DNA of 64,000 nucleotides, from the NCBI GenBank assembly GCA_023213315.1, contig JAKCPI010026439.1:92331-156330 (forward strand), in the 5' to 3' direction. Below the pieces are notes generated by a model. It was not told where the DNA came from. It did not search any database and saw nothing but the letters and a program-made list of their open reading frames with translations. Positions 1,721-54,526 of this stretch are shown here, one piece after another (the stretch's first letter is position 1; the number at the start of each line of letters is the position of its first letter). Both the position numbers and the translations under genes were made by a program. This DNA is from Euborellia annulipes. Taxonomy: Eukaryota; Arthropoda; Insecta; Dermaptera; Anisolabididae.

Positions 1721-1975
1721 GGAATAAAGAAAAGAGTGATTGCAGCTTTTTCGTTTATTAGGCGCTTCAAGCCGACGTTTCGGTCAGATATTCGACCATC
1801 CTCAGGACTACAATAAATAACGAGTTCTGTTCTGCAAAATTATTTCCAACTGTATACTCACTCGTTCCTTAATGTTATTTATTGTAGTCCTGAGGATGAT
1901 CGCATATCTGACCGAAACGTCGGCGGTGCCTAATAAACGAAATAAATATAGTTTAATTCACTCTTTTCTTTATTA
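1721..1975. repeat. Fold-back element
   Basis: Arms run inwards from GAATAAAGAAAAGAGTGA and CACTCTTTTCTTTATTAC, with CCGACGTTTCGGTC in the left and GACCGAAACGTCGGC in the right. Hammerhead-like motifs at 1,770-1,809 (minus) and 1,889-1,921 (plus). Confidence 0.9.
1770..1809 (-). ncRNA. Hammerhead-like motif
   Basis: Outer helix AGTC/GGCT (one G-T pair), CTGAGGA, T, stem GGTC/GACC, GAAACGTC. Confidence 0.4.
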
Positions 1976-2014
1976 CTGCAAGATCAACTCAGGCTTCCAC
2001 ATCATTCTAAAAAA

Positions 2015-2771
2015 TCCGGTGTGACTGGTCGCACAGCACACAACTTTTTCTTACCTCCGGTAATCGAAAGTTGTGTTCTGTGCTTGTCCCACCAGATTTT
2101 TTGTGTCGACATGTATTCACTTTCGGACAGTAGGGTACGTTCGTTTTTCAAGATGTAAAATTTATAAGTATAATATGAAAATATTTATATTTTGTTACCA
2201 TGACAACCATTTCTCCTATCTTTTCTATGGAGTACTAGAGCAAAGTGGTCTTCAGAAGATTTCAATGACAAAATGAGAATATACATTTTAAAGAGCATCT
2301 AAAAAATAATTTATTTTTGAATTTTAATCAAAATAGTTGGAGCGAATTTTGGGAAAATCGAAAAAAAAAACTGAAAAAGTGCATCAGTAAAATACTAGTA
2401 TTCTTTGGCTGATTTTGTTCAAAGGCTTCGTGTCAAGTCCCAGGGGGTGCCTAAGTTAAATATAAAATTTCAACATCCTAGCTTATTTCATGCTTTAAAT
2501 TGAACCCAGACACACATACACAAACAGACAGCAGACCATGTCGCGAAAACCACTTTTTTGGATTCAAAACGTGTATATGGAACCACAATAGATTTATTTT
2601 TAATACGACAGTTACAGTCTAAAGTCTTAAATGGCCTGAGTTGCCGAAAAGACTAAAAAAAATAAATAAATAAAATAAATAAAACGTGTATATCCGTCAA
2701 AATCTCGACATCGACATGAATTCAATAGTTTCTCTCTATATATTGACATATATATAGAGATAAGAGAATGT
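2015..2771 (+). mobile_element. RepA copy interrupted by a SINE fragment
   Basis: Both terminal hairpins are present. A 102-bp SINE fragment splits the AACGTGTATATCC motif at 2,579-2,680. Confidence 0.8.
2579..2680 (+). mobile_element. 5'-truncated SINE-1 with 13-bp target duplication
   Basis: The SINE 3' part (AAATGGCCTGAGTTGCCGAA, then an A/T-rich tail) is flanked by AAAACGTGTATAT at 2,566-2,578 and 2,681-2,693. Target duplication plus tail indicates retroposition. Confidence 0.8.
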
Positions 2772-3288
2772 AAAATTTTCTTTATGTTAGATAGGACTTG
2801 TCCTCCTAAATGCAATTTCTTCTCCTCCATCGAAAATCGTATTTGGTCAACACAATAGATTGTTGCCACCCTTCCCGGATTGCCCTCCCAGTGCGGGCTT
2901 TATGAGTGTGGACATTCCGAATTGCGTTGATTCGACAAGAAAATATCGCAAATGATGGGCATGGGATCTTGGGACTGTGAAATTACTCTCCCAACACACT
3001 GACAATTCTCATCAATTATATGCATGTAATTAGACTACAAAATTCCATAATAAATTTAATTTAGATTAAACAACTAATGGTTTCTGCTCTTTATGAAAAC
3101 ATTTGGTTCCCGTGGGTCTTGCTATATGATATGGATACATTTTTCACCTGGTCTGTTATAAATTTGATATTATTAGAATTTAGAATGGACGAGGATGCCC
3201 GAGGGATTTAGTGTAAATACGCAATTTCTGCTTTTCTTAAGCATAATTTTTCAATAGCTTCTTTTGAATATTTTCTTATTGCTAATTG

Positions 3289-3481
3289 AACCCTGTTACG
3301 CTTTAGTGTGTCAAACGCCATCTACCGAGTTTTGAGAGTTTTGCTAGTAACATTAAATATAACTTTTTTTAGGATATATTTCATAAAAAATACTATTAAT
3401 TATAGCATTTGAAACAATATTCCGTGCTTAACTTAATTTTGAATTTTTTGGTCTTTGACACACCATTGCATAACAGGGTCC
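3289..3481. mobile_element. MITE B, uninterrupted copy
   Basis: About 193 bp between ACCCTGTTACGCTTTAGTG and the complementary CACCATTGCATAACAGGGTC. No coding capacity. It is the empty-site relative of 56,430-57,349. Confidence 0.75.
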
Positions 3482-4180
3482 AATTAATCAAGTTCCTACT
3501 GATTTTTATTCACCTTCAAGAATTAATTGAGCCTATTCCTTATTCAATTCTTCTAGCCAATACTTTAGTCTTATTATTATTTAGAGTCCTCATTTGACGC
3601 CAAAGAGTAGTCCAAGCTAAGAGTTGTGTTATTTTCATTAATTCTTTTTTATCAAACTTCTCTCCTCTTCTCATCCAGCTCTCATTATTATGCACCAAGG
3701 CATTTGTGATTTTCCTTTGATTCATAATTGCAAAACTCACAAAATACGGAAATGCCTATATAAAAGGGAAAAAGTAATGAGAGCTCTTGGGAAAAAAGTA
3801 TTTATTTACTTTATTTATTCCTTGTTTTTTTTTCTAATAATTTAAAGATGATCTCCCTCCCTCCCTCGTGGTCGAGAACTTAGAGGTGATGACATGTCAA
3901 TATTGATAATCTTAAAGTCAAGGGTTCGGATCTTGTGAATATTTATTTAAATCATTTGGATAGCAAATGATATAAATAAATGCGCCTGAATAATTTGAAT
4001 CTTTACTAAAATATTTGTGTATCGTTTAAGGCAGTGTTTTCCAGATAAAATTAAATTTTATGCTTTAAAGCTGCACTTATTTTGGATTTTCTAGATTTTT
4101 TTAAGGTGTTCCTCTTCAAAAATATGCAGATAATTGAAATACATAGAAGACAATGTAGAGGAAGGCCGTAATACAGATTA

Positions 4181-4479
4181 AAGACGAAATGAAACAAGAC
4201 TTCTATTGGCCCGAATTATTTATTTTTTCTCTGTCGGCGTTTCTGGGACTAAACGTCACCCATCTTCAGGACAAAGGTGTTAAAAAATTCTTTTCTCTGC
4301 CCTCTTCAGTTGTTAGACTGTAAGTATACCTTATACTATACAGATTCATCTGCTTGTATGCAGGGAAAATAATTTTTTAACACCTTTGTCCTGAAGAAGG
4401 GTGACGTTTAGTCCCAGAAACGTCGACAGAGGAAAAATAAATAATTCGGGCCGATAGAAGTCTTGTTTCATTTCGTCTT
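4181..4479. repeat. Fold-back element, about 115-bp arms
   Basis: Left arm AAGACGAAATGAAACAAGAC, right arm ending GTCTTGTTTCATTTCGTCTT. Hammerhead-like motif in the right arm at 4,387-4,428: TGTC/GACA outer helix, CTGAAGA, GGG/CCC, GAAACGTC. Confidence 0.93.
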
Positions 4480-5700
4480 GAAATACCTAGATATATAAAG
4501 TTTCAATCGGAGTTGATTTAGTGGTGCAAAACTCGGTTAAAAATTTAAAAATCTCGAATTTTTTTTTCAGTTTTTTTAAATTTTGGACACTCTTAATAGA
4601 ATTTATAACATCCTTGAATGCAAAACACATATATTTACGATATTGTATAGTTCTTTAGCTTTCGAAAAAGCATTAATTCGTACAAATCTGTTAATTATTA
4701 ACGAAATTATGAAAAAAAAGTCAGGTAAAAAAAACGTTGGCTGCCTATCTCATAGGCGCTTTGCTCACTCCAAAACTAGAGCTCATAACTCAACTCAACT
4801 CTATCTCAACTTTGAACTATTTATAAACTATTTAGGGGGGGGGAAGTGATAAATTATCTCTGAATGTTTTCATGTTTAAAGACTTATTATTTTGGCCAAT
4901 TTCTTTAACTTAATCTAAAGATTAAAATTAATTTATTTCAAAAATAATCATCATCATCAATTCCCTTTACAGATTTAACATTTTCCTTTATCTTATTAAA
5001 ATAAAACCATCTTTATTTCTCCCTTATTTGGTTAGGTATTAAAAGATGATTTAATGTCTCCCCAGAGAGCAACCCATCATATAATTACTAGTAGTATGGC
5101 ATCTAACACGGTTAGTAAAAAGCCCTCCCTGTCTCATTCATTATCAACGAATCATCTTTTAAATTAACTGAAAAGTTAATTACACACCAATTATTAATTT
5201 AATTAAATGGAATATGAAAGGATTTAAAGAAAACAATTTTAAGACGAACTAGAAGAAAGATTACCTATCACCACCACATTCAACTCTAATGAGTCCACAC
5301 TTCTCTCAATAGACTACGATAGAGAGACTTCTCTCATCTCTGTATAGTAGATAAAAAATTCATATTCACAAGGTCGTGTGGTAGTGTTTTTTTTTTTTGT
5401 CTTTTTCGGCATCTATGGCCATTTAGACCCCATCCTTATTTATTTCAAATGATTTGTAGTCAAATCAAATGAAATAAATTTTTCAGAATAGGTTGCATTT
5501 TAGTAATAGAAAGATACTCTAGAGCAGTGGTTTCCAAACTTTATGTTACAAAGCTTTCCTTAAAAATATTTAATCATATGACGCCTCCCCCTCCCCTCCC
5601 CCATTTTGTAAAATAATACAAAAACCAAAATTTTGTATGCTAAAAAATATAAATTTATATTAAAGCGGAGTCAAAAAAAAATTCCTAGTTATATGCATTC

Positions 5701-5940
5701 AAAATTATTGTGACGTTTCGGCCTTCTTAAGAGCCGGAGGCGAGAATAAATGCAAAAAAAATAAATTTTAATTTCAAAATTAAAATTGTCATTTTTCAAC
5801 CAAAATTTTCATTCAAAATTAAAATTGTTATTTTTCAACCAAAATTTTCATTCAAAGTTAAAATTTCATTTATTCTCACTTCCGGCCCTGAAGATGGCCT
5901 AGTCTAGTGGCCTAAACGTCACAATAAAAGAAATAATTTT
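5701..5940. repeat. Fold-back element, diverged
   Basis: AAAATTATTGTGACGTTTCG at the left; CGTCACAATAAAAGAAATAA at the right. The core CTGAAGATGGCC in the right arm has lost the G of GAAA. Confidence 0.8.
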
Positions 5941-6590: not shown

Positions 6591-6603
6591 CCCCTTGGGG
6601 TAA

Positions 6604-8177: not shown

Positions 8178-8212
8178 GACGTTTCGGGTGAATTTCATCG
8201 ACCCATCTTCAG
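8178..8212 (-). ncRNA. Hammerhead-like motif in a single arm
   Basis: CTGAAGA, T, stem GGGT/ACCC, GAAACGTC. No partner arm found; a truncated scrap CCGACGTTTT is at 8,077. Confidence 0.35.
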
Positions 8213-13194: not shown

Positions 13195-13990
13195 CTCTGG
13201 CCTCTGACGTAATCACTCAAGAAAACCAAAATTTGCTGGGTTTCTGTACACGTGAGCTTGTCACTATTTTAATTAGAAGGGATACCGAGTGGAGGGAATG
13301 TAGCGTTTTGAAGGGAACTTGCTCTAGCGTTCGTAAAGAAGTTTCTCTTCAAGAATGAAAAATATTTTAGTTGGTCGCAGATAGATTTTTTTAAAGGGAA
13401 ATGGATGGAATGCGAATTTTCGATTATTTCTCCTACTCTGTTGAAGTAATCGAAAATTCGCCTTCTATTTGTTTCATTTTTACTTTTTAAAAATCCACCT
13501 GCGACTAACGAAAATAATTTTCATTGTTAGTAGATGGCCGTAAGGATGATCAATTATATTATAAGGACATCGGCCAAAAAAATGAATACTTTTGCGTATT
13601 ATCCGTTTATTTGTAGATATTTCGGTTCTAATGGATTATGAAAATTGCATTCATGGATACGCAGCTGTTTTGTCATATTGGATGGGAAGAGTTAACGATT
13701 TGCAAAACATCTGTTGATTGTACTGAGGATGATTCTATACCATTAGAATCGAAATATCTACAAATAAACGGATAACACGCAAAAGTATTCTTTTTTTTGG
13801 CCGATGTCCTTATAATATAATTAATAATTTTCATTTTTGAAGTGAAACTTCTTTATGAACAGTAGAAGAAGCTCCCCTCTAAACGCTACATTCTCTCCAC
13901 TCGGTGGCCTTTCTAATTAAAATAGTGAGGAGCTCACGTGTTCAGAAAGCCAGCAAATTTTGGGTTTCTTGAGTAATTACGTCATCTGTT
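13195..13990. repeat. Large imperfect palindrome, about 800 bp
   Basis: Outer arms 13,195-13,375 and 13,825-13,990 (TCACTATTTTAATTAGAAGG vs CTTTCTAATTAAAATAGTGA). Inside are an inner fold-back 13,555-13,820 (ATAAGGACATCGGCC both ways) and a 25-bp-arm hairpin at 13,408-13,462. Confidence 0.85.
13718..13763 (+). ncRNA. Hammerhead-like motif, well formed
   Basis: Outer helix TTGTA/TACAA (5 bp), CTGAGGA, T, stem GATTCT/AGAATC (6 bp), GAAATATC. The mirror arm near 13,617-13,650 has lost the CTGANGA part. Confidence 0.45.
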
Positions 13991-31254: not shown

Positions 31255-31293
<39 letters not shown>

Positions 31294-44300: not shown

Positions 44301-47300
44301 AGCTATCGGAATTTTCAACTTAAAAGTAGATTTTCCCCTTCAGTTGCATTAAAAAAAGATGATTTATTTATTTTAAAAATATTGGTTTGGTTGATTAAGC
44401 TCTCGAGCAAATCAGGCACTTGTGGCGCTGACTCTGCTACTTAGGGTGTGCATTGGGGTGTTTCATTCGCTGTCACACTGAAATATTGTTCCAAGCATCG
44501 ACAAAAAAGTTCCTCGAAGTTTCAGACCTTAATTTTAATTTTAAGTATTTTATCTCGAACATTGAATTTTTCCCATTGAAATAACATGTAAATCATTGTA
44601 TTTTTGGAAATCGTTATAGCTCAGTTCGGTTTCGGCTTTCATTGCGACTTCTCGGTAGTGTATTAGACACTCTTTAAAATGTCCAGTATTATTTTATTGT
44701 TACTTGAACCGTTTCGTAGGTGTCGGCCTCGAAATACCTATTTCCATGAAATTGTCATATTAACTTTGTTATTAACAAAACGGCTGAAGATACAATAAAA
44801 AACGTAAGGAAAAACTTGCAGGAAATTAGATTTTCTACAAAAAATGTCCTATAAAGTATTTAGCTCAAGTGTGTTATTCACAATATATATATTCAGTTTA
44901 ATATATTGAAGATTGAAAAATTATTTCTTAAATTCATTGTACTGAATATATCTTGTGAATAATGCACTTGAGCTAAATATTTCATAAAGTAGAAAATTAA
45001 TTTCCTGCAAGTTTTTTCTTACGTTTTTTATTTTATTTTCTGCCGTTTTGTTAATAACAAAGAAAATATAACAATTTTCATGAAAATTCCTGTAGATGCC
45101 CCCCCCCCTTTCATAACGACGCTTTCTTATCTTTGTCTCTAAAACAGGGGGAAATCTACGCCCTTTACTCCCCTTGCTTAGGCTCTACTATAATTGTATT
45201 TCGTACAAAATATTTGCTTTCATTTATGGACAAATAACATTTTTTATACTATTATATTATTTTAATATCAATTCAGCTATTTAATAGAATTGATTTATTC
45301 CTTATCAATTTTTTTCTATTAGGCCTATTGCTCCATTTGTGTTTCCTTTTTATTTTTATTCCATGCCGGGTATATTTCCTGCATTCATATCAAACTCTAT
45401 TAAGTTATTTTCCTCTTTTGCATTTGCAAGTTTCTTGTTTCTTCTTAAATTGATATTTTTATAAAAAAATTCTCATTCATTTTAATAATCAAATAGAATT
45501 TTTTAGCTGCTTCTACTGGAATTTCATATTCTTCATCTCTCTCTCTCTCTCTCTCTGAGTCTTTGATACACCTTTAGTAATTTTGAAATAATTATCTCCC
45601 ATATAAATATGGAAAAATTTATATAAAAATAAACAAACTATGTCCAGCAAAAGACGAATGGAGTTTTTTTCGGGCGAATATTTATTGAAGATCATTCTCA
45701 TATGATTAGTATACTCAGGGGCTGACTTACTAGTGAGTACGTGGCTACCTAGATTTACCCGAGCTAAGGCTGACATTTTGTCCCTCTCCTATTTGTCAGC
45801 CTTTTTTTACCCTTTTTCATATCAAGCATCAGGCCGTGAGATGGGTCGGCTTGTTTTTCTTTCGATCTCATTTTTTTATAAATTAATTTTGAGGACCCAC
45901 ATAGGGATAAGACCAAGATAGAAGCCTAATATAATTAGTAATATAAATAGAGGGTAGCAGCAAATAATAAATAGCCGCTATAGATTTTTGACATTTCGGT
46001 TCCATGTTTGAACCATCTTCAGAGCTGGCAAAAATTCTTTATTATGGTGAATTTTATACATTTTTAGATTATTATCATGGAACCGAAAAGTCAGCTGTAG
46101 CTGTACAAATAAAATAAATCCAAACTATAGCTGCAATTTCTTGTTACCACCCTCTATTAATATTACATCACGGCTATACAATTGCGTTTTACGAAACGTA
46201 GCTTGTGTTTTCATTTAATAAATATAATTGGCCTGAAAAAGCTCCATTTTGCCATAATAATTAACAGCATCTACAGAATTAAGTGATATTAGAGCAAATT
46301 TAATTTCTAATTGAGCAGATAATATGATTATAGTTTGGTTTCGTTATTGTTTCCAGTCAATTTGCAGTTTACTCTTTTTATGAAAAGAGAAGAAGAAAAG
46401 CTTCAATTTTCTTCCAGCCCTCACAAATGCTAAGTAGAGTGGCGACCTTAAAAATAAAGGAACTCTGCTGACTTTCAAATGGATTTAATAGTTTTTCACA
46501 TATAAGAGAGTCAAGCAGTAATATCAGTAACAATAAAATTTCATTTGTGTCTGGGTTTATTGTCACATGAGGTAAAAAAAAAAAAAATCTTATTTTAAAT
46601 AAGATTACAAAACGTTTAAGTTTATAAAACGTTAATAAATAAACATAATTAAATTCTTTAATACAAATTTAAACAAATTTTATTTCAAAGTTTCGGGTCA
46701 CTTACCGTTCATTCTTCAGAACGGAAAGGAATGTTTCTGAATATAAAAATTTCATTATATTTATTATAATAGATGAATGGAGATATCAGCCAAATTGTAA
46801 TGCTCGAGGTTCTATAAAACTCCCAGAATAAGACGTTTCGGGCTGAATTTATTGGCCATCTTCAGTTATTGGACATTACTAGGGACCGGATTCTTAGGTT
46901 TTCACCTTTTTCTTTCCTTGAATCCAAACGCGAAATGGACAAATTACTTTTTCGACTTATGTATTCTGGAGTTGTTTAACCAAATATTGAAAAACCTAAA
47001 TGGGTTCGGGTCACCTAAAATCACCTAAATTAGAAAACTCGTCTACCGAGATTTTTTTTTTAAATTTATTGGTGCTTTTAGATTGAGAAAAAAAATTTTT
47101 ATTTTTATTTATTTCATTTTATCTACTTCCAGAATTATTTAATTTTCTTATATAATGTTTTAGGTACCTGTATTATATTTTTTAAAATTAAAAAAAAAAA
47201 ATATATAATTAAAATAATATTTTTTTACAAATTTCTGTACATATTTAAAATTAATTAAAACTTTTTTTCTCCCCAAATGCGTTTTATTGGTCGAAAACCT

Positions 47301-47934
47301 AAAAAAAAAAATCTATTTTGGGTGTTACAAAAACCTAAAAACGAGTCGAATCGAACCTAAAAATCCGGTCCCTAGACATTACACACTTAATGCAAAGTGC
47401 ACATGTGATTGAACCTGGAGCATTCCAATTTGCGTGATATCTCCATCCCTCTATTATAATAACCTCACAGCCACAACTTGAAGCAATTAAAAATTTCGTT
47501 GTCATATCCCATAAAAAAAACTCCCAAGACAGCCCCGGAACTAGGAGATGTGTTAGGAGGGGCAAAATTTAATTCGCCTGCCCAAAGACGAGGGGTTTTT
47601 GTAGAAAAAAGGTAAATTGGTCATTTGGCACATCACTACTCGAATTGTAGGCTTTTTAGTTAAATCACTTGCTTACTATTATGCTACTTGATTGTTGGTT
47701 TCATACCTTCTTCCTGTATGGTATCCATCTCATCCCGTCGTCGTTGATTTTCTTCTTCGGCGGCGGCGATCTCCTCGGCTGTATTTGAGAGCGGTGTGGG
47801 TGTGACACTTGGCTCCTGGGAATGATGCCCACCCGTCATTTGTGCACTCTGATTGGGTCGGTGTCTTCGATGATGTGATCTTCGCTTTACTCCAGGCAAA
47901 TGTACGCCCACGTAGACGGTGTGCGCGCGATGTC
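18276..47934 (-). CDS. Ndae1: SLC4-family Na+-driven bicarbonate transporter (Ndae1/NBC-like), 21 exons, 5' end missing
   Basis: Plasma-membrane transporter of the SLC4 family; relatives move HCO3-/CO3(2-) with Na+ (some exchanging Cl-) to regulate cell pH. I assembled 21 exons by eye; every junction is GT-AG and every phase matches, giving 3,746 nt (about 1,247 residues plus stop), close to the 1,000-1,250 usual for Na+-coupled members. Seen in order: basic segment ([11 protein letters not shown]), cytoplasmic-domain motifs ([69 protein letters not shown]), FGGL entry to the membrane domain, [68 protein letters not shown], and a tail ending VTAL. Best family match is Ndae1/NBC/NDCBE rather than AE; the exact ion coupling cannot be read from sequence. 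The first exon was not found, so the start is unknown. Coordinates include introns. Confidence 0.95.
18659..18890. mobile_element. hAT-type MITE, 232 bp
   Basis: Inverted ends CAGTGGCGTCATTT and AAATGACGCCACTG, flanked by GTTAAGTT (18,651-18,658 and 18,891-18,898). A degraded relative with the same interior (AAATAGGTACTCAAATTTGG) is at 22,950-23,210. Confidence 0.87.
18900..19700. other. Last SLC4 intron
   Basis: Between exons T and U. Contains a G-tract element around 19,221-19,400 of uncertain class and otherwise AT-rich sequence. Confidence 0.5.
19712..19763 (-). repeat. RepA terminal hairpin fragment
   Basis: ACTTTCTCTTACCTATA...TATAGAGAGAAAGT only. A similar scrap is at 51,260-51,300. 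Confidence 0.55.
19798..20027 (-). CDS. Ndae1: SLC4 exon T (cytoplasmic tail)
   Basis: 230 nt, acceptor TTTTACAG, donor AG/GTGAGT. Encodes [35 protein letters not shown] and a seven-Gln run followed by [14 protein letters not shown]. If the donor is not used, the frame reaches TGA at 19,794-19,796 and the protein ends in IIR. Confidence 0.92.
20764..20919. repeat. Fold-back element in the SLC4 tail intron
   Basis: Arms AGACAGCAGCCAGGG and CCCTGGCTGCTG, with GTCGACGTTTCGATAGC and GCTCTCGAAACGTCGGC inside. The core CTTGAAGATGA has one inserted T. Confidence 0.88.
21325..21465 (-). CDS. Ndae1: SLC4 exon S (end of membrane domain)
   Basis: 141 nt, acceptor TTTTTAG, donor GAT/GTAAGT. Encodes [20 protein letters not shown] and ILDDVMPE, the usual exit from the membrane domain (RK..D..FT.REL..LDD.MPE), then a hydrophilic tail. 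Confidence 0.96.
21534..21641 (-). CDS. Ndae1: SLC4 exon R
   Basis: 108 nt, acceptor ATTTAAG, donor ATG/GTAAGA, phase 0-0. Encodes [20 protein letters not shown] and ends ITSIFFPLM, matching the family pattern P..(K/R)VH.FT.IQL.CL..LW..K. Confidence 0.96.
21703..21913 (-). CDS. Ndae1: SLC4 exon Q
   Basis: 211 nt, acceptor TTTTCAG, donor CAG/GTAAAC. Its first A completes Arg. Encodes [39 protein letters not shown] and [11 protein letters not shown], conserved late membrane segments. Confidence 0.98.
22050..22700. repeat. Nested inverted repeats in an SLC4 intron
   Basis: GTGTTCAAGGAAGGAGTTGT vs CACAACTACTTCCTTGAAAA, with an inner pair TTTTGAACACTTTCTGTTTT vs AAAACAGAAAGTGTCCAAAA. Looks like an older fold-back; no ORF. 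Confidence 0.6.
22690..22851. repeat. Fold-back element, about 70-bp arms
   Basis: TTGTTATTAATTATTTATTA at the left, TAATAAATAATTAATAACAA-like at the right. Cores with stem GGCTGC/GCAGTC (minus, 22,729-22,764). One arm of the same family is at 41,010-41,085. Confidence 0.92.
22950..23210. mobile_element. Degraded relative of the 18.7-kb MITE
   Basis: Shares AAATAGGTACTCAAATTTGG and CAGAGCCCTTGG with 18,659-18,890. Ends are diverged (TTGCGTCATTT, AAATGACGTCCCC). Lies about 50 nt from the 3' end of SLC4 exon P. Confidence 0.7.
23258..23436 (-). CDS. Ndae1: SLC4 exon P
   Basis: 179 nt, acceptor TGTTTAG, donor CG/GTAAGA. Encodes [40 protein letters not shown] and [16 protein letters not shown]. 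Textbook Na+-coupled SLC4 sequence. Confidence 0.97.
23518..23697 (-). CDS. Ndae1: SLC4 exon O
   Basis: 180 nt, acceptor TTTATAG, donor AAG/GTATTT. Encodes [18 protein letters not shown] and [20 protein letters not shown]. The FMDQQIT...NR stretch is diagnostic of SLC4 membrane domains. Confidence 0.97.
23763..23858 (-). CDS. Ndae1: SLC4 exon N
   Basis: 96 nt, acceptor TTTTTCAG, donor GAG/GTAGGA. Encodes [20 protein letters not shown] and ends IGIETPKLE; RxxISDFAV is a strong family motif. Confidence 0.95.
23921..24082 (-). CDS. Ndae1: SLC4 exon M
   Basis: 162 nt, acceptor TTTCCAG, donor AGT/GTAAGT, phase 0-0. Encodes the end of the extracellular loop with the fourth Cys ([13 protein letters not shown]), then the next transmembrane helix [16 protein letters not shown] and [12 protein letters not shown]. 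Confidence 0.94.
24151..24348 (-). CDS. Ndae1: SLC4 exon L (extracellular loop)
   Basis: 198 nt, acceptor TTTTCAG, donor TTG/GTAAGT, phase 0-0. Begins [13 protein letters not shown] and encodes most of the large extracellular loop. It has three cysteines (CLC and DC) and two N-glycosylation sequons (NST, NWT). The paired lysines that bind stilbene inhibitors in vertebrate relatives are not visible at the start of this exon. Confidence 0.9.
24587..25045. mobile_element. C/G-tract MITE, hAT-like
   Basis: TAGGCGCTGGAACTG and a G-tract at one end, a C-tract and TTCGTTCCGACGCCGCTG at the other. AT-rich centre, no ORF. Confidence 0.5.
25547..25586 (+). ncRNA. Hammerhead-like motif
   Basis: Outer helix GGCC/GGCC, CTGAGGA, T, stem GGTC/GACC, GAAACGTC. 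A degraded partner on the minus strand is near 25,330-25,367. Confidence 0.42.
25914..25918 (-). terminator. Pol III T-run terminator of tRNA-Sec
   Basis: TTTTT begins 2 nt after the 3' end of the tRNA on the transcribed strand. Confidence 0.75.
25921..26006 (-). tRNA. tRNA-Sec-TCA: tRNA-Sec (anticodon TCA)
   Basis: An 86-nt selenocysteine tRNA. The acceptor stem is 9 bp (GCCCAACTG with CTGTTGGGC, carrying the typical T-T mismatch at pair 8) with a 4-bp T stem (GTGG/CCAC), the eukaryotic 9/4 form. The anticodon arm GCAGGCTTCAAACCTGT shows TCA, the long variable arm is TGCC/GGCA, and the T loop is TTCGATT. A TATA element lies 22-30 nt upstream (26,028-26,036) and a T5 terminator begins 2 nt downstream, as expected for this TATA-driven Pol III gene. 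It sits on the same strand in the SLC4 intron between exons K and L. It implies the organism still makes selenoproteins, which many insects do not. Confidence 0.97.
26028..26036 (-). promoter_or_regulatory. TATA box of tRNA-Sec
   Basis: TATATATAA on the minus strand 22-30 nt before the tRNA. Animal tRNA-Sec genes use an upstream TATA box and PSE instead of an internal A box. I did not identify the PSE with confidence. Confidence 0.6.
26506..26671 (-). CDS. Ndae1: SLC4 exon K
   Basis: 166 nt, acceptor TTTCAG, donor AAA/GTAAAT. Encodes [40 protein letters not shown] and then IFICK. DASxLVxYxTRFTEE is a family signature. Confidence 0.96.
26808..27064. mobile_element. hAT-type MITE, 257 bp
   Basis: Inverted ends CAGTGGCGTAGCGAGC and its near complement TTCGCTACGCCACTG, flanked by the 8-bp duplication AATAATAA on both sides. 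The 8-bp duplication is typical of hAT transposons. No ORF. A partial relative starts at 48,992. Confidence 0.85.
27640..27952. repeat. Fold-back element, diverged
   Basis: AGAATAGAAATTAATTTATA with GTCGACATTTCGGTT at the left; CCGAAACGTCGAACAGG and AAATTAATTTCTATTCTAC at the right. Lies in the SLC4 intron between exons K and J. Confidence 0.8.
28082..28345 (-). CDS. Ndae1: SLC4 exon J (first membrane spans)
   Basis: 264 nt, acceptor TTTCCAG, donor GA/GTATGT. Its first G completes Trp from exon I. Encodes [35 protein letters not shown] and [17 protein letters not shown], the first transmembrane segments of the SLC4 fold including the substrate-site loop. Confidence 0.97.
28457..28632 (+). 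mobile_element. Internally deleted RepA beside SLC4 exon I
   Basis: Keeps the 5' hairpin (CTGATGTGA...TCACATCAG) and the 3' GAGAAAGT end but little else, 176 bp. Ends 24 nt from the exon I donor, in the intron. Confidence 0.75.
28656..28804 (-). CDS. Ndae1: SLC4 exon I
   Basis: 149 nt, acceptor TTTTTAG, donor TTG/GTAATG, phase 0 in, 2 out. Read in the spliced frame it gives an acidic/basic linker, then [18 protein letters not shown], the conserved entry to the membrane domain. A longer open frame across this region is in a different frame and is a shadow. A RepA copy ends 24 nt past the donor. Confidence 0.93.
28864..29208 (-). CDS. Ndae1: SLC4 exon H, with an inserted Asn/Thr-rich loop
   Basis: 345 nt, acceptor TTTTAAAG, donor CAA/GTATTA, phase 0-0. 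The 3' two thirds encode [17 protein letters not shown] and [16 protein letters not shown], as expected. The 5' third encodes about 45 residues rich in Asn, Thr, Ser and Pro that sit between LLGP and the HE(I/V)GR motif, which in typical family members are only about 7 residues apart. Confidence 0.93.
29272..29457 (-). CDS. Ndae1: SLC4 exon G
   Basis: 186 nt, acceptor TTCACAG, donor TCT/GTAAGT, phase 0-0. Encodes [20 protein letters not shown] and [19 protein letters not shown], among the best conserved stretches of the SLC4 cytoplasmic domain. Confidence 0.97.
29888..29970 (-). CDS. Ndae1: SLC4 exon F (variable linker)
   Basis: 83 nt, acceptor TTTTTTAG, donor AAG/GTGAGA. Completes Gly from exon E and encodes [20 protein letters not shown] and a short tail; Ser/Gly-rich with a basic RTVS site of the kind kinases prefer (inference). 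Phase 1 in, 0 out. Confidence 0.78.
30298..30465 (-). CDS. Ndae1: SLC4 exon E (variable linker)
   Basis: 168 nt, acceptor TTATTAAG, donor CTG/GTAACC. Joined to exon D the split codon becomes Met: [12 protein letters not shown]..., ending LIKLHSPG. Not strongly conserved; it lies in the linker between the two halves of the cytoplasmic domain. It has phase 1 at both ends, so it could be skipped in frame. Confidence 0.72.
30761..31448 (+). mobile_element. RepA, near full-length copy
   Basis: Same order of parts as 56,588-57,254, with a long (CA)n tract at about 31,243-31,305. Lies in the SLC4 intron between exons E and D, antisense to the gene. Confidence 0.85.
31240..31306. repeat. (CA)n microsatellite inside RepA
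   Basis: ACAC tracts with GACA interruptions. The same place in other RepA copies is also CA-rich, so the tract comes with the element. Confidence 0.9.
31555..32222 (-). mobile_element. RepA copy (minus) split by SINE-2
   Basis: The 5' hairpin is at 32,137-32,222 and the body from about 31,790 down to 31,555. An unrelated segment plus a SINE-2 lies between about 31,790 and 32,095. The 3' end is missing. Confidence 0.7.
31966..32085 (+). mobile_element. SINE-2 copy
   Basis: CCCGGGTTCGCTTCCCGTCC, TTTGAATTGGCTATCAATC and AAATAGGGATGGGGTC. Inserted in a minus-strand RepA. Confidence 0.7.
32293..32528. mobile_element. Tigger/pogo-type MITE, degraded right end
   Basis: CAGTAGAGTCTTGCTAATCC at the left; GTCCGGATTAGCAAGA at the right. 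Confidence 0.8.
33145..33818 (-). mobile_element. RepA copy (minus)
   Basis: The 5' hairpin is intact at 33,736-33,818; the 3' hairpin is lost. It contains a nested SINE at 33,554-33,685. Confidence 0.8.
33554..33685 (-). mobile_element. 5'-truncated SINE-1 nested in RepA
   Basis: 3' part of SINE-1 with GTGTGAGTGTGAGTG-type tail and an A-run, flanked by a 12-bp duplication TACAGTATAGTA (33,542-33,553 and 33,686-33,697). Confidence 0.82.
34779..34880 (-). repeat. RepA 3' end fragment next to the 34.9-kb palindrome
   Basis: TCAAAAATTCGTTGTCGACA and ACACGTTTTGAGGTTCCC identify it; the palindrome starts directly after. Confidence 0.65.
34897..35493. repeat. Near-perfect fold-back, 264-bp arms
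   Basis: Left arm 34,897-35,160, right arm 35,230-35,493, loop 69 bp. The arms are almost identical, so the element is young or was recently converted. Each arm carries a hammerhead-like core. No ORF. Confidence 0.95.
35338..35369 (+). ncRNA. Hammerhead-like motif
   Basis: CTGATGA, T, stem GGTAG/CTACC closing the loop TTCGGA, then GAAAC. A mirror copy is on the minus strand at 35,021-35,046. Function not shown. Confidence 0.4.
35735..35930. repeat. GC-rich inverted repeat with a tRNA-like 3' half
   Basis: GATGAGTTTGTGTTTGATTG and CAATCAAACTCATC arms. The centre reads GCGCCCC ... GGTTCGACTCCAGTGGGCGC, which looks like a tRNA T arm and acceptor strand, but no complete cloverleaf with an anticodon arm forms. 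Probably a tRNA-derived repeat. Confidence 0.6.
36045..36165 (+). mobile_element. SINE-2 copy
   Basis: GTTCGCATCCCGTCCCAGGG followed by a diverged body ending GGCCTCAGATGCCGAAAAA. Confidence 0.62.
36680..36731. other. Flank of the candidate cassette exon
   Basis: Less AT-rich than the surrounding intron; nothing recognised apart from the possible donor at its border. Confidence 0.3.
36732..36857 (-). CDS. Candidate SLC4 cassette exon between D and E
   Basis: A GC-rich 126-nt block open in the required frame, with acceptor CTCTTAG and donor CCAG/GTCCGC. It takes 2 nt to complete exon D's split codon (giving Ser) and leaves 1 nt that fits exon E (giving Val), so it can be included or skipped without changing frame. 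It would add a Ser/Gly/Pro-rich 42-residue linker (such as [12 protein letters not shown]) in the region where SLC4 proteins carry variable, phosphorylated insertions. Against it: the polypyrimidine tract is weak and the other minus frames are also largely open, so it could instead be a repeat fragment. Confidence 0.4.
37280..37600. other. Unclassified low-repeat segment in intron D-E
   Basis: Balanced base composition and few homopolymers around 37,380-37,560. Followed by an AATAAATAGATAAATAAATA tail near 37,697, which would fit a retroposed fragment on the plus strand. No family recognised. Confidence 0.3.
37803..38035. mobile_element. Tigger/pogo-type MITE
   Basis: TAGTCTTGATAATCCGGCC at the left and GGATTAACAAGACTCTACTG at the right. 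Confidence 0.8.
38747..38885 (-). CDS. Ndae1: SLC4 exon D
   Basis: 139 nt, acceptor TTTTTAG, donor AAA/GTAAGA, phase 0 in and 1 out. Encodes [17 protein letters not shown] and [17 protein letters not shown], matching the VREALLKRHHH...PLVRSFADIG block of the family. Confidence 0.93.
39191..39778. mobile_element. MITE with ACAGGGTGTTACCC ends, hosting a Tigger MITE
   Basis: Left end TACAGGGTGTTACCCAAAGG, right end GATGGACACCTTGTAT; the Tigger-type MITE sits near its right end. A fragment of the same family (GGGCCCTCTGATTTTGAAAT) is at 21,985-22,075. It lies in the SLC4 intron between exons C and D. Confidence 0.65.
39522..39730. mobile_element. Tigger/pogo-type MITE, 209 bp
   Basis: Ends CAGTAGATTCTTGCTAATCC and GGATTAGCAAGACTCTACTG with TA on both sides, the pattern of pogo/Tigger elements. 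Relatives: 32,293-32,528 and 37,803-38,035. Confidence 0.85.
39811..40030 (-). CDS. Ndae1: SLC4 exon C
   Basis: 220 nt, acceptor TTGCCAG, donor AAG/GTAATT; its first G completes Arg from exon B. Encodes [20 protein letters not shown] and then [13 protein letters not shown], core of the cytoplasmic dimerising domain. A transposon-derived MITE ends about 30 nt past the donor. Confidence 0.95.
40535..40733 (-). CDS. Ndae1: SLC4 exon B
   Basis: 199 nt, acceptor TTTTCAG, donor CAG/GTAATA. With exon A it forms a GAT codon. Encodes a Gly/Pro-rich stretch, then [12 protein letters not shown] and ending EWQETAR, the start of the SLC4 cytoplasmic domain. Confidence 0.93.
40850..40960 (+). mobile_element. 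SINE-2 3' half
   Basis: GGCTACCAATCAATTTAAAT, AAATAGGGACGGGGTCTAAA, GATGCCGAAAAAAACC. A sister copy with the same following sequence is at 48,705-48,840, so both may be parts of a larger repeat. Confidence 0.65.
41561..41677. repeat. 21-bp minisatellite, about 5.5 units
   Basis: Unit CTAGACTGCCTCTGCCTGCT (plus one base), with an A/T variant near each unit start. Since 21 is a multiple of 3 it stays open in several frames, which explains the repetitive ORFs there. Sits in the SLC4 intron between exons B and A. Confidence 0.95.
42769..43032 (-). mobile_element. SINE-1, near full-length tRNA-derived copy
   Basis: Starts with a tRNA-like head: A box TTGGTGTAGAGGTTAGCG and B box GGGTTCGGACCCC. 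The body follows (AAATGGCATAAGTTGCCGAA), then a (GTGTGAG)n-like tract and an A-run. It is flanked by a 13-bp duplication CTAACTTCCCTAT (42,756-42,768) and CTAACTCCCCTAT (43,033-43,045) with one difference. No ORF. Confidence 0.85.
43046..43445 (+). mobile_element. 5'-truncated RepA interrupted by a hAT-type MITE
   Basis: Matches RepA from CCTATGAAGTA to the GGCCGATTT region, split at AAAATGAG by the element at 43,095-43,289. Confidence 0.7.
43095..43289. mobile_element. hAT-type MITE in RepA, 195 bp
   Basis: Inverted ends CATAGGCGCCGACT and AGTCGGCGCCCATG, flanked by AAAATGAG (43,087-43,094 and 43,290-43,297). Confidence 0.87.
43617..43912 (-). mobile_element. Degenerate RepA copy (minus)
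   Basis: Carries TGTACTTTTTCAGT, CTTGCACTTCATAG and half of the 5' hairpin. Together with the previous copy it makes an inverted pair. Confidence 0.6.
44743..45082. repeat. Fold-back element without the hammerhead core
   Basis: TGTTATTAACAAAACGGC and GCCGTTTTGTTAATAACA arms of about 150 bp; AAAACTTGCAGGAAATTA and TAATTTCCTGCAAGTTTT inside. Confidence 0.88.
45712..45935 (+). repeat. Second copy of the 6.9-kb repeat
   Basis: Same order of short matches as 6,920-7,150, more diverged. Confidence 0.55.
45944..46160. repeat. Fold-back element
   Basis: AATAGAGGGTAGCAGCAA at the left, GTTACCACCCTCTATTAA at the right. Hammerhead-like core on the minus strand at 45,990-46,022: CTGAAGA, T, GGTTC/GAACC, GAAATGTC. 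Confidence 0.82.
46765..47465. repeat. Fold-back element split by a hAT MITE
   Basis: GGAGATATCAGCCAAATTG at the left, CAATTTGCGTGATATCTCC at the right. Core on the minus strand at 46,827-46,870: outer helix AATAA/TTATT, CTGAAGA, T, GGC.../...GCC, GAAACGTC. Confidence 0.82.
46880..47374. mobile_element. hAT-type MITE, 495 bp
   Basis: Inverted ends TAGGGACCGGATT and AATCCGGTCCCTA, flanked by GACATTAC (46,872-46,879 and 47,375-47,382). It interrupts a fold-back element whose arms resume at 47,383. Confidence 0.87.
47707..47934 (-). CDS. Ndae1: SLC4 exon A (most 5' exon found)
   Basis: Acceptor TTTTCAG, donor AAG/GTATGA; 228 nt. It enters with 2 nt of a split codon and leaves with 1 nt. Encodes [20 protein letters not shown], then a His/Arg-rich and Glu-rich stretch ending MDTIQEE. 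The HR..YVGVHLP.....RSHRR block is diagnostic for the N-terminus of Na+-coupled SLC4 proteins, where it is known as a regulatory segment. An upstream exon must supply the first base of the split codon. Confidence 0.92.
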
Positions 47935-49465
47935 CTGAAAATCACACACACACACACAAATGAAATGCTATGAATATTCAAATTCGAATTAATTAAAGGG
48001 TCTGATCAAGATTGATGGATGGTTTCTCGATTAAAGGGCCGCTTTCAAGTTCCCTTCATACACAAATATAAAAACCTTCGACAAAATTATTAATTATGAG
48101 TGAATATAAAAGATAAATAACAATTTTACTCTCCTTTTTTTTAACTAGAGGGTATAATCTCAATTACGAAATTTATTCTTCCTGTTATTGACTTTGTAAT
48201 TTAATCATTTATTTTGAGACGGGGTTAACTCAAAAAGGGAAAGAACTGTTTATAAAAAAGAGCGCGCATATTTTAATATTATGCTCAATTGGTTACGCAT
48301 ATTTTAACAAAGCTTTTAAACCAAACAATTCATTTATCATCTTATTGAATATCGTTTCGTAATATTTAAAGTTTCGACCGCTGGCACTTGTTGAAACATT
48401 TTGTAAATTAAAATATGCAAATAAAAACACTTTTTCGTGAAAATTGTTTGAAGTAGGCTACACTTTACTGATGTAGTATTTCAGATTTTTCAAATTCATT
48501 TTCAGGCTATTTGTTTCAAATTATTTATTGATTTATAATCAATTTTATTTATATACTTAATATTGTTTCACTTTGTGGTTGTTTCAGGGACCGATTAAAG
48601 GGGGGGGGGGGGCGGTGAGGGCGATCGCCCCCCCCCCCCCGAGAAGAAATTCGAAAAGTTATAAAAACTAGTAATCTAAAGAAATTATGTTTTCCGCTCA
48701 TTAATTTCAATTGAATTTGTTACCAATCAATTTAAATAAATAGGAAAGGGGTCTAAATGGCCACAGATGCCGACAAAGTCCTTAAATAAAAAAAAAATAA
48801 AAAAAACCGCCCCCCCCCCGACAAAATTGCATTAATCCGCCATTGGGTTGTTTATGTTTTATTAAGGTGGTAGAGTTGCAGGAATTTTTTTATTTTTTTT
48901 ATTTTAACGTTTTGAGTCTCTCGTCACTCCTTCTACAGAACCAACAAGTTGACAAGTATTTTATATAGACAAAATAAAGAAACTAGTGCAGTGGCGTAGT
49001 GAGCTTAACTCGCGCCCGGGGCACAATACCTTTTTAGCGCCCCCCGACCCATTCGAAAACCATATGAACATTATACACTGGTGTATATAGAACTTTTTTC
49101 GGGGGGCCCGAACTCAAAAATTTTCCTGCCTGGGGAAAATTTTTTCCTCTGCTGTTAAATTCATTTTACCTTTTTTTTTTTTAGGGAGGCTAAATTTTGA
49201 GGAATTTTTTCCCCTTCCTGGTGAAAAATTTTATTTTTTTTGCGGAACCAAATTTTCCCGTCACGCGGAAAATATTTTTCCCGGATCTTTATAGATCTCC
49301 ATAGATCTCTAAATGGGCTAATGGAAAAATAAAAGAAGAATAAAACTGGATTTGTAAGGGAGAGATTTTAACCTGGAAGTTAACACGTAGATCCTATTGG
49401 TCTTGTTCAGGAGTATTAATTATGTAATTAATGTAGAAAATGGCTGTGTAGAATTCACTAACAGG
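47935..49465. other. Region upstream of exon A, no exon found
   Basis: Contains a C/G-tract repeat around 48,600-48,840 and the start of a hAT-type MITE at 48,992. I looked for a minus-strand exon ending one base into a codon and saw no convincing candidate here or up to 62 kb. Confidence 0.5.
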
Positions 49466-49906
49466 AATGCAGCCAGGTAGGGAGCCTCTATTATTAAATC
49501 AAACTCCGTTGTTGCAAAACGTTTCGGCCAGTTTTATTGTGCCATCTTCAGTTGCATAAGCTAAACAAAAAATTATTTACATTGACATTATTTAACTCTC
49601 AATCACTCACATAATATATATTTATTTGCATTGTTATTTTATACATAGTCTATTGTATAACTGAATTATGAACAGACGATTAACAACTCTATTTGCTAAA
49701 AAAAACTGTAAGTTTTAATAATGTTAAAATTTTTTTTTTTTAATTTTTAAATCAAATATTTAGTTAAATAAAGTCAATGTAATTAATTTTTTGTTTAGCA
49801 TATGCAATTGAAGATGGCATAATAAAATTAGCCGAAACGTTTTCTAACAAAAGAGTTTGATTTAATAATAGAGACTCTCTTCCTGGCTGCGTTCCGTTTC
49901 ATTCCT
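49466..49906. repeat. Fold-back element, about 150-bp arms
   Basis: GGAATGCAGCCAGG and CCTGGCTGCGTTCC ends. Left core (minus, 49,519-49,551): GCAA/TTGC outer helix, CTGAAGA, GGC/GCC, GAAACGTT. Confidence 0.88.
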
Positions 49907-50221
49907 GATATTAATTATATTTAAAGAATCCGGTCCTGCCTCTCGTACCGAGTCAGTTGAGGGCCTGGGGCGTCAAAGAAGAGGGGGGCCTATATACATT
50001 TTGTACCAGAGGTGAATATTGAATTTTTCGGAAGGGGGGGGGGGGCGAACTCTCAAAGGCAAATTTTCATAAAACTTTTTTTTTATCTAAATTTTTTTGT
50101 TTTCACCTGAGCCCTGGACCCTCTCAAAGACATACATTTGGGGGCCTATGCCGGCTTGGGGTCTGGGGGTACGCCTCTGCTGCCTCTCAAAGGAAAAAAT
50201 ATGAAATATTTAAAAAATAAA

Positions 50222-51066
50222 GAGAATAATAGAAACAGTCTCTTCTTCTCTCATCAAATCAAATTATTGCAAATATTTCGGTTCCTATACATGGGCCTTC
50301 CTCAGTGCATTTATGAATTTTTGAGAGAAATTGTTAAAGATAAAAAATAATAGAGAAAATTAGAAAGCATGGGCTTCAGGTCAGTCACACGAAACCCATT
50401 CGCTCTCAAAAATTCATAAATGCACTGAGCATAGGCGTAGTCACGGGGGGGATTTGGGGGTTCAAACCCCCCCCCCCCATTGGACCTAAGCCATGACTAG
50501 ATATTTAAGCTCTATAATACAAAAAATATAATAACTTTCTCTAGCTTAAAAAAATAAAATAAAATAATTTTAGTAAAGGAAACGTAAAAAATTCGAGAAA
50601 ATTGAGAATTTTCCCATTGAAAAGAATTGATTTTTGTCTTGCTTTTATAAAAAATTAAAGCCTGCTTAAAATTGATTAAATCCCTCAAATGAAAAATAAT
50701 AAAAATTATTATATAAACAAATTTATTAATATTTTTTACTTAAAGATATCTAATATTTATTTCTGAAACAATAGAAACAGATAGACAGAAACTTTGATAA
50801 GATCGTTGAATTTTTAATTGGCTGAAACGAGTTGAATGAAAAATTGCGGCACTTAAAGAGGGGCCTGAGTGCCTAGTTATATATTTCATTAGACGCCATA
50901 TACTGCATATCGGGAGAGGAGGGGAGAGAAATCACCCTGAAACCCCCATCAAAAATTTCTGGCTACGCCTATGGCACTGAGGAAGGCCCATGTATAGGAG
51001 CCGAAATATTTGCAATAAAATGAAGTGATGAAGTGATGAGAGAGAAGAAGAGGCTGATTTGATTCT
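50222..51066. repeat. Fold-back element split by a hAT MITE
   Basis: TCTTCTTCTCTCATCA at the left, TGATGAGAGAGAAGAAGA at the right. Cores CTGAGGA, A, GGCC...GGNNCC, GAAATATTT in both arms. Confidence 0.85.
50430..50973. mobile_element. hAT-type MITE inside a fold-back element, 544 bp
   Basis: Inverted ends CATAGGCGTAG and CTACGCCTATG, flanked by GCACTGAG (50,422-50,429 and 50,974-50,981). It splits one arm of the 50.2-51.1 kb fold-back within the hammerhead-like core. Confidence 0.87.
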
Positions 51067-52005
51067 CCTTATCTCCCCAATCTGCGATTCCCAGCTTTGT
51101 ACAATTACTGTATTTAAAAAATATTATAAATGAAAATATTTAATTTTAAAATTAAACTTTTATTTTTGGTAGTGGTGGATGTATTATTATACAGCACAAG
51201 AACAATCTTTCATTAAAAGAAAAATAAATTTTAAAATAAGACCAAATAATTAGATTATTTTTACTTTCTCTTACTCTATATATGAAATATGAAGTATTTT
51301 TATTAAAAAATTTGAGCTTGTGCATACAAATTTCTACTTTACTAAGTATTTATATAAATAAGCGGTTTATTCTAAAAACATGTTAGTTTCAAATGATTTA
51401 ACGTTTAGCTACTTACAGTAATAACGAGAGAGATCCATTAAATAATATTACTAATACTGGCCACTCACTATTTATTCCTCAAGCGCTTACTAGAGCCAAC
51501 TAGCTGCATGTGATTAAAACCGAACAAGCAAGTTTGTTTGAGTCTTATCATCAACATTCAAAGGGAGAGTCAATATTTGACTCATATGTTGATAGATATT
51601 TAATTGTACTCGTGAGGAGAAGTACTTTGGACTCAAATTGACTAACCCCCTTCCCAAACCATTCATAAGCCCTTTTTTCTTTAACACGAAATAAAATATA
51701 AAGAAAAAAAAACATTTTTTTTTCTTTTAATTAAAATTCTAAAGAATTCAGTAATCAAATTCCTTTTCAAGAATTTTTAATTACTATGTACTGAATAATC
51801 AACATCTATGATTCATTCAACTCTTTAATCAATTCAAGAAAAGAAGATAATTTGATATATAATTTAAAATTTCTTGATGAAAAGCCAAAAAAAAAAATTC
51901 GTCTTCTCAAATATAGAATGAATTTATCTCATTTCAAATGCATGTTAGCTGACTTGTGTTGGCCAATTGAGATTAATTACACTGGTAGGGCCTGTGTATG
52001 AAACA

Positions 52006-53120: not shown

Positions 53121-53339
53121 AAAGTAAGACTCATTCTAGAAAATTATACTATGTGTAAAACCCAAAGGAGAATCCAGGGATGTTTTTCAGGGGGAGAGGG
53201 TTTTAATTTTTTTCTGACTAGACGGGAAGCTCGCCCGAAGACGATAGCATTTTTAATTATTTTATTTATTTGAATTAGGGGTTGAAAAATTGAAAAAATG
53301 TTTTTTAAATTTTTTTTTAGGCTGGCAGAAAAAAAGCCG

Positions 53340-53359
53340 GCCCCAAAAAAAAGGGGAAA

Positions 53360-53396
<37 letters not shown>

Positions 53397-53432
53397 AAGG
53401 GGGGGTTTTTTAAAAAAAAAAAAAAAAATTTA
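53340..53432. repeat. Poly-G tract with flanking A and G runs
   Basis: An uninterrupted run of about 37 G (53,359-53,395), then AAA, more G, T and A runs. Either a real homopolymer or an assembly/sequencing artefact. Confidence 0.9.
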
Positions 53433-53689
53433 TTTTAGCTAATTCGAAGCCAAATAAATAGAAAACATTCAAAAAATAGCGTTGATTATTATTTTATAAT
53501 ATTAAGGGTTGATTAGGAGTGATGAAGGGTTGATTATTTAAGAAGGGCCTTGGAATATTCCAAATCACTTGTTGACATTCTTTTCCAGTTCTAAATATAG
53601 TTAGATTAGACCAAAAGGTATTTTTTTACTTTTAATAAAAAGGGAATTGTTATTTTCATTTATTTTTATTCCTATACAAACAGAGAGAG

Positions 53690-53845
53690 ACAAGTCTATC
53701 TCTCGTTCAGTCGAGTGCGTGGCCGAGTTGCAGGCGCTGCTCGCTTTTTTGTGTTTAAAGTGAATCAAAGTGAATAATTAATATAGTGTAACCCACCCTG
53801 ACCTCACCGTCAACCAGCACACCCTCTTGAGAGTCTTATTAAAGG
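53690..53845 (+). promoter_or_regulatory. Possible transcription start and 5' UTR exon
   Basis: TTCAGTCGAGTGCGTGGCC resembles an arthropod initiator (TCAGT), followed by GC-richer sequence and a possible donor AAAG/GTAATT at about 53,844. It could be the 5' end of an unseen plus-strand gene or of a retroelement. No coding sequence follows that I can recognise. Confidence 0.25.
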
Positions 53846-54029
53846 TAATTATTATGCATTTTATCGTTAAAAAAAATGATAGAAACAAATAATTTGACTG
53901 CGAAAAACGATTCTTTTGAATATGAAAATAAATATTTTGTATTTCACGAAGGGTAGAGAGAGAATATAAGCTGTTGAAAGGGGGTGGGGGAATGTAGGTG
54001 TCATTGAAAAAAAAAATTAGTTCAGGCAT

Positions 54030-54142
54030 TTCTATTTAAGCCATTTGGTATCCATTTCGGACTGCCAGGGGTCCGAACCCGTCGCGGGTTCTGTATAGAA
54101 GGTAGGCCCACTACCAACTACACCAAGCCTGAGGGCATTTTT
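54030..54142 (-). mobile_element. SINE-1 head (minus)
   Basis: Minus strand reads CCCTCAGGCTTGGTGTAG, then GGGTTCGGACCCCTGGCAG. Confidence 0.72.
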
Positions 54143-54230
54143 TTTATCTTTCCTTAATTCACCATTATTTACCATTATATTCTTTCTATATGGCCTATAT
54201 TTTTGTTAATCAAATTTCCTTAATATAATA

Positions 54231-54526
54231 TGAGGATGGTTACAAGGGCAGCAAGGCGAAAAATAAAACAAAAATCTATTTTTTGTCGACGTTTCGAGTG
54301 CCGATCGCACTCTTCATCAGGACAACCGACCGATTTCGACCTCGAAATACTAGAGTCTTCAAGTAAATGTAAAAATGGTTAAAACGTTGCTATACTGCCA
54401 TGTCAAACGACCTGACGAATTGACATCATTTTTGTCCTGATGAAGAGTGCGATCGGCACTCGAAACGTCGACAAAAAATAGATTTTTGTTTTATTTTTCG
54501 CTTGCTGCCCTTGTAACCATCCTCAT
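54231..54526. repeat. Fold-back element, about 95-bp arms
   Basis: Left arm from GAGGATGGTTACAAGGGCAG, right arm ending CTGCCCTTGTAACCATCCTC. Both arms carry a well-formed hammerhead-like core. Confidence 0.93.
54429..54477 (+). ncRNA. Hammerhead-like motif, best formed
   Basis: Outer helix TTTTTGTC (54,429-54,436) pairs with GACAAAAA (54,470-54,477), 8 bp. Core CTGATGA, A, stem GAGTGC/GCACTC (6 bp), then GAAACGTC. Order and invariant bases match a type I hammerhead with a tiny helix III, but one extra base sits before stem II. Mirror copy at 54,283-54,325 on the minus strand. Confidence 0.5.

Follow-up and report, generated by a model that had tools for sequence, protein, structure and literature searches.

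The window analysed here, a stretch of 64,000 nucleotides of contig JAKCPI010026439.1 from the dermapteran insect Euborellia annulipes, contains a scattered set of hammerhead-like sites. To judge from their sequence, these sites are very probably minimal type I hammerhead motifs that lie near the 3′ end of solo pseudo-long terminal repeats (pLTRs), remnants of Penelope-like elements (PLEs) arranged head-to-head. Fourteen families within 64 kb have a common architecture, with a palindromic stub where helix III would stand, a sequence box in the tail and head-to-head pairs. The kind itself is already known, as PLE pLTR hammerheads without helix III; the link from stub to layout is the part worth following. 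Most copies have diverged, no coding part was found with them, and they are probably inert.

The 5′ part of the core, CTGANGA, occurs 49 times in the window compared with 17.55 ± 4.29 expected, a count that includes at least seven matches from unrelated repeats (901, 2255, 33461, 56822 and 61930; 62441 and 63879). A strict motif, in which CTGANGA, 0-3 bases, a stem of 4 or more Watson-Crick pairs and GAAA follow one another, has ten sites against a mean of 0.07 and a maximum of 1 in 100 shuffles. At nine of these ten the gap before the stem is exactly one base long; at the tenth, the left copy of the element at 4.2 kb, the T has an A with which it could pair. Under relaxed criteria the scan of the window gave 16 sites; counting degenerate and partner copies, we list 21 cores in 14 families, leaving aside two weak sites (46719 and 25365). 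These numbers bear out an earlier reading of the bare letters (the original prediction), which had spoken of about 20 sites. All seven stems that it named are present, the one at 15606 (GGTCTT/AAGATC) with one G•U wobble, as are its five pairs of flanks. An alignment by MAFFT, which misplaces the core at 35340, and a pattern scan of genome contigs, whose matches were mostly at chance level, were left out of the counts, although loci from that scan were included in the pooled sets. The families, recognized as pairs by self-comparison where a partner exists, are the following:

1720-1977, head-to-head element with cores at 1774-1805 (minus strand) and 1890-1921 (plus strand)
4178-4482, head-to-head element with cores at 4236-4269 (minus, stub ACGC) and 4391-4424 (plus, stub ACGT)
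5720-5920, core at 5888-5920 (plus, TAAA for GAAA) with a doubtful, decayed partner at 5720-5755 (36 nt, 83%, at the core; tail lost)
8178-8212, minus strand, hammerhead-like site, inverted partner not found
13546-13828, head-to-head element with a core at 13723-13758 (plus) and a degenerate left core; stub ATAT, stem II of 7 bp
15605-15636, minus strand, hammerhead-like site, inverted partner not found
15669-15934, head-to-head element with a core at 15742-15776 (minus); the right arm (15864, plus) keeps the 5′ half of the core only
25551-25582, plus strand, hammerhead-like site, inverted partner not found; stem I GGCC/GGCC, 26 nt from A9 to C17
34897-35493, near-perfect palindrome with 1 nt between the arms; cores at 35019-35050 (minus) and 35340-35371 (plus)
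45938-46166, core at 45990-46022 (minus) with a doubtful partner, of which a possible tail lies at 46136-46166 (31 nt, 81%)
46761-47462, element with a core at 46832-46865 (minus), partner core apparently deleted; the partner leaves its tail at 47408-47462 (55 nt, 87%) and an upstream piece at 47354-47375
49464-49895, head-to-head element with cores at 49518-49551 (minus) and 49808-49841 (plus, TTGA for CTGA)
50217-51072, head-to-head element, stub ATAT, cores at 50272-50305 (minus) and 50977-51010 (plus), 671 bp between them
54230-54526, head-to-head element with cores at 54288-54320 (minus) and 54437-54469 (plus)
54216-54227 (left) and 54526-54537 (right), 12-bp target duplication TTCCTTAATATA of the preceding element

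The stems differ in sequence from site to site, and the original prediction held that their strands nevertheless stay complementary. Since some sites of the 14-family table were found through their pairing, that table is biased, and the unbiased test is a set chosen by the core alone: 27 rows at 25 different CTGANGA positions, or 22 rows when one arm of each of five inverted pairs is removed. Although this core-only set contains clear non-hammerheads, among them an unrelated repeat present four times (901, 2255, 33461 and 61930), 52 of its 88 stem II pairs are Watson-Crick compared with a mean of 29.4 when the 3′ strands are swapped between sites, and stem I has 59 of 110 compared with 33.0 when partners are swapped. 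In neither stem did any of 5000 partner swaps equal the observed pairing. In this window, therefore, Watson-Crick covariation exceeds what swapping produces, and the claim holds. The biased set of 14 families gives 49 of 56 pairs for stem II and 44 of 70 for stem I, values reached by none of 10000 swaps. The exchanges within single pairs illustrate the same behaviour: the first pair of stem I is C-G in five families, A-T in five, G-C in one, T-A in one and something else in two, and the second pair of stem II is G-C in 11, A-T in two and G-T in one.

In a set chosen on the core, the presence of the hammerhead bases C3-U-G-A-N-G-A9 and G12-A-A is part of the choice, as is the retention of GAAA in 13 of the 14 families (the site at 5888 has TAAA). 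The bases around the predicted NUH cleavage site are also kept. H17 is C in nine families, T in four, A in one and G in none, and U16.1 is kept in 13 families, the exception being 35340; the left arm at 4269 likewise lacks it. In the 54-kb element, the plus arm has a stem I of 8 bp and a stem II of 6 bp, and the two arms are identical at 95 of 96 positions between -5 and +90 relative to the core start.

Upon inspection of the region where helix III should stand, we found a tetramer after GAA that reads ACGT in nine families, ATAT in two, and AGGT, ACTG and ATGT in one each; the left 4.2-kb arm reads ACGC. In 11 of the 14 families a palindromic ANNT stub thus replaces helix III and leaves no room for it in cis. 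Helix III is impossible within one molecule because the tetramer ACGT leaves no loop; ACGU and AUAU are self-complementary, and helix III could therefore form between two molecules. A palindromic stub could be what is expected if cleavage requires a dimer, and by sequence it is a dimer that the motif would fit. One-strand and two-strand folds of the copy at 54429 did not distinguish monomer from dimer. In line with such an arrangement, reviews describe PLE hammerheads as lacking helix III (PMC6155905, PMC7761336) and suggest that dimeric motifs may be the route to cleavage (PMC7761336). Of the type I hammerhead with a minimal helix III that the original prediction proposed, the core, the covarying stems I and II, H17 and a palindromic remnant remain, whereas the helix itself cannot be formed in a monomer.

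Stem II does not directly follow A9, as nine of the ten strict sites have one extra base in between. This base is T in 11 families and A in three, and sites of the T type read CTGANG-ATG. In the 4.2-kb element, the extra T (left) or A (right) stands opposite an A on the other strand. The original prediction had noted the consistent base correctly and had called it not canonical, an objection that loses its force upon comparison with hammerheads in viral contigs. We drew two samples of these. In the first, the 5′ side of stem I was fixed as CCGC and the extra base was left free; among the matches listed (102 loci) there were 52 three-stem hammerheads, 33 with T, one with G and 18 with no extra base, and with 18 further loci included the counts among the matches listed became T 48, G 3 and none 18. 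In the second, loci were fetched with GGTTAA, and the 56 three-stem hammerheads among the matches listed (118 loci) had T in five cases and no extra base in 51. An extra U between A9 and stem II is therefore a natural hammerhead variant, and because three-stem hammerheads in viral contigs carry it, it is no obstacle to the hammerhead fold. These viral hammerheads have the core and extra base of the window sites (IMG/VR contigs L061, L079, L096 and L025) and differ from them in their full helix III and viral location. The U between A9 and stem II is found on contigs L061, L079, L096, L025, L054 and L252, often with several hammerheads per contig. The accessible part of PMC3088659 names hammerhead insertions after A6, after 13 and near C3, and none after A9.

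The extra T may go back to the U in the start codon of an ancestral PLE; if the PLE reading is true, CTGANGATG with the same stems would be expected at the start of a PLE open reading frame (ORF). A kept reading frame from this ATG was considered and found unsupported in these copies, as the spacing from A9 to C17 varies from 26 nt (four families) to 27-30 nt (ten families).

Beyond the core, the families have a tail in common. A GCYGM box lies 54-82 nt past the core start in 13 of the 14 families, compared with 10.9% of random 80-nt stretches of the window and three of the 14 matching upstream stretches; since the box was first noticed by eye in these very data and then counted, the figure overstates the surprise somewhat. 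AATAAA occurs at +30 to +80 in eight of the 14 families (random, 12.3%; upstream, two of 14). The box may mark the start of reverse transcription or bind a protein. A motif adjoining a conserved tail, often with AATAAA, is also what one would see in a conserved hairpin with some other function, such as reverse transcriptase (RT) binding, priming or transcript ending, whose hammerhead core is ancestral or structural and not catalytic. Mutants of the Anolis PLE with a dead hammerhead ribozyme (HHR) still insert in vitro (PMC11167929), which speaks for such a hairpin. H17 in 14 of 14 families and U16.1 in 13 are, however, kept as a cleaving ribozyme needs them, and the wild-type Anolis PLE ribozyme does cleave with protein present (PMC11167929). 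We consider the non-catalytic hairpin a serious alternative, if an unlikely one.

Self-comparison yields eight homologous inverted pairs, at 1.8, 4.2, 13.7, 15.8, 35, 49, 50 and 54 kb, and a ninth at 46.9 kb, where 55 nt match at 87% and the partner core is deleted. Nine of the 14 families thus have a firm inverted partner, and the argument from layout rests on these nine; two more partners (5888 and 46022) are doubtful, and all are placed tail-out, so that the motifs point outwards in all eleven pairs. The description of the sites as lying inside fold-back elements is borne out for these nine and is doubtful for the two; for the other three families no partner was found. No homologous direct or tail-to-tail close pair was found in the window by self-comparison at E 1e-4. 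Outer arm homology reaches +86 to +96 from the core start in five of seven aligned pairs, extending to +154 in the 35-kb pair, while in the 15.8-kb pair a deletion has cut the right core. The inner limit of homology differs between pairs, lying at -3, -5, -16 or -46 or running through the centre, and depends on scoring, as a laxer BLAST crosses the centre in more pairs. Near-fixed outer and variable inner ends are the pattern expected of copies reverse transcribed from one fixed start and truncated at the 5′ end. The 12-bp target duplication of the 54-kb element has no equal in length among 3000 random flank pairs. An outer inverted repeat (13205-13366/13823-13984; 162 nt, 87%) encloses the 13.7-kb pair and overlaps its right end. 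Rfam matches to MIR5649, MIR5185 and MIR6136 in the window were rejected; they are below gathering, fall mainly on these inverted repeats and were read as hairpin matches, not genes.

Inverted-repeat elements of about 260-860 bp also recall miniature inverted-repeat transposable elements (MITEs), whose arms would be terminal inverted repeats moved by a transposase and whose subterminal hairpin would merely resemble a hammerhead. We think this very improbable. The target-site duplication (TSD) is not constant, a clear one of 12 bp being found in one of eight pairs; apart from the internal GCYGM box, the ends were not seen to have any sequence in common; the inner ends vary and most outer ends are constant; and stem I, built from both flanks of the hairpin, covaries, which a simple subterminal hairpin would not predict. 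Metazoan non-LTR retrozymes, whose spread relies on small circular RNAs excised by type I hammerheads, can hardly be the source either, for although their repeats of 150-450 bp carry such hammerheads (PMC7229834) and PLEs have been named likely candidates for completing their mobilisation (PMC7761336), tandem repeats would be expected of them, whereas partners here are inverted with no homologous direct pair nearby at E 1e-4, and helix III is absent from the window sites, as described for PLE motifs. The original prediction had left the affinity between PLEs and retrozymes; the PLE side is favoured by the pLTR layout with its common tail, and retrozyme is the weaker label because homologous pairs are head-to-head and not tandem.

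Several observations weigh against the assignment to PLE pLTR hammerheads. The 35-kb palindrome has no stem I and no GCYGM box, and its helix III remnant has decayed to ACTG and lost its symmetry; the left 4.2-kb arm is without U16.1, and the site at 5888 has TAAA. The families are partly dependent: sequence around the core is common to 1805 and 25551 over 36 nt and to 8212 and 46865 over 42 nt. Three of the 14 (8212, 15636 and 25551) have no findable inverted partner and two have a doubtful one, that of 46022 being matched as well by 48 of 1000 random places. Two pairs of neighbours lie on the same strand (15636/15776 and 46719/46865) and are not mutually homologous at E 1e-4. A clear target duplication exists in one of eight pairs, the best of the other seven being 0-5 bp and no better than random. 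A simple motif scan of the window, which did not extend to a profile search of every ORF, detected neither a PLE RT nor a GIY-YIG motif.

The Rfam hammerhead model, which the original prediction had put forward as a check, listed no hammerhead in the window with E values as high as 10, and none in stretches of 70 and 66 bases around two good copies. The same model was weak on the viral-contig control. Six viral contigs have 16 motif sites, ten without and six with the extra base, and Hammerhead_1 listed two of the ten (29.2 and 26.8 bits; gathering 34) and none of the six. At gathering it reported none of 12 viral loci, at least four of which (L061, L079, L096 and L040) have three-stem hammerheads. 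The silence of Rfam in the window therefore says little, because the model listed only 2 of 16 viral-contig motif sites, and those below gathering. Hammerhead counts resting on the Rfam model alone may be low.

If the sites are PLE pLTR remnants, RNA reading through tandem pLTRs would cleave after NUH once two motifs pair through ACGU or AUAU. New copies would be produced by target-primed reverse transcription starting in the tail, and a head-to-head pair would come from one insertion event, in which either both target strands prime a complementary DNA or self-priming occurs. As non-autonomous remnants, the window copies would owe their movement to a PLE located elsewhere in the genome. A bolder proposal is that the stub has been kept to join two pLTR RNAs as a dimer, that this dimer is the insertion substrate and that both nicked strands prime, one on each RNA, whereby one insertion would produce both copies of a head-to-head pair. 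We offer it as a speculation with slim chances. If true, hammerhead dimerisation and fold-back architecture would be aspects of a single mechanism, in which the ribozyme core serves partly as a dimer-linkage structure. We did not meet the idea of the dimer as insertion substrate in the PLE and hammerhead literature consulted, the nearest two papers lying outside that body of text.

The window is animal DNA with a G+C content of 28-36% in 2-kb steps. A Pfam scan covered ten stretches, six of which matched Band_3_cyto or HCO3_cotransp, and one SLC4-like exon stretch also has relatives in the PDB. The hammerhead-like sites at 25.5 and 35 kb fall inside the span of this SLC4-like gene. The neighbouring features are:

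21658-40053, minus strand, exons of an SLC4-type sodium bicarbonate transporter
25921-26006, minus strand, selenocysteine tRNA gene (79.5 bits), inside the SLC4-like gene span
41563-41672, tandem array of a 21-bp unit, 5.2 copies, 96% alike
62439-63881, probable DNA transposon remnant with inverted ends of 92 nt (98%) and a helix-turn-helix ORF (PF13518)
62953-63383, inverted repeat nested within this transposon remnant
862-1072, 2216-2426, 30952-31162, 43236-43446, 56783-56993 and 61891-62101, six listed copies (at least 60% alike) of a separate interspersed repeat

Several copies of the six-copy interspersed repeat contain the stretch CTTCTGAAGACC, which inflates the CTGANGA count.

The closest known systems are the minimal type I hammerheads of PLEs (Cervera & de la Peña 2014; Lünse et al. 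2017; via PMC7761336, PMC6155905 and PMC6466107). Like the window sites, these are of type I, lack helix III, are presumed to act as dimers, and occur both dispersed in non-coding animal DNA and in PLE pLTRs. The window copies differ in having no attached PLE ORF. In PAc, a Poseidon element of Anolis carolinensis, the HHR lies at the junction of pLTR and ORF, and an internal start of reverse transcription defines the tail (PMC11167929). If the ATG of PAc is A9-U-G, the element has the A9 to C17 spacing of four of the 14 window families. By contrast, PAc is autonomous, occurs in tandem repeats and has a ribozyme that needed protein to cleave. Its protein, a predicted dimer, cleaves and extends both strands (PMC11167929), and the head-to-head layout could therefore arise directly.

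The layout itself has a counterpart in the Penelope elements of the rotifer Adineta vaga, whose inverted pLTRs are mostly head-to-head and about 200 bp long; a TSD, where there is one, measures 8-10 bp, and a 31-bp tail is optional. Their describers proposed self-priming (PMC3846280). Inverted and mostly head-to-head pLTRs, palindromes at the junction, a TSD that is sometimes absent and an optional tail are thus common to both systems. The Adineta vaga pLTRs, however, for the most part border captured DNA or ORFs that are either complete or truncated, whereas the window pairs have no coding part that we found. The role and activity of the minimal PLE hammerheads, and of those in Terminons, have been called a mystery (PMC7761336). 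The window families make two questions about them testable: does the motif act as a dimer, and do both target strands prime PLE insertion?

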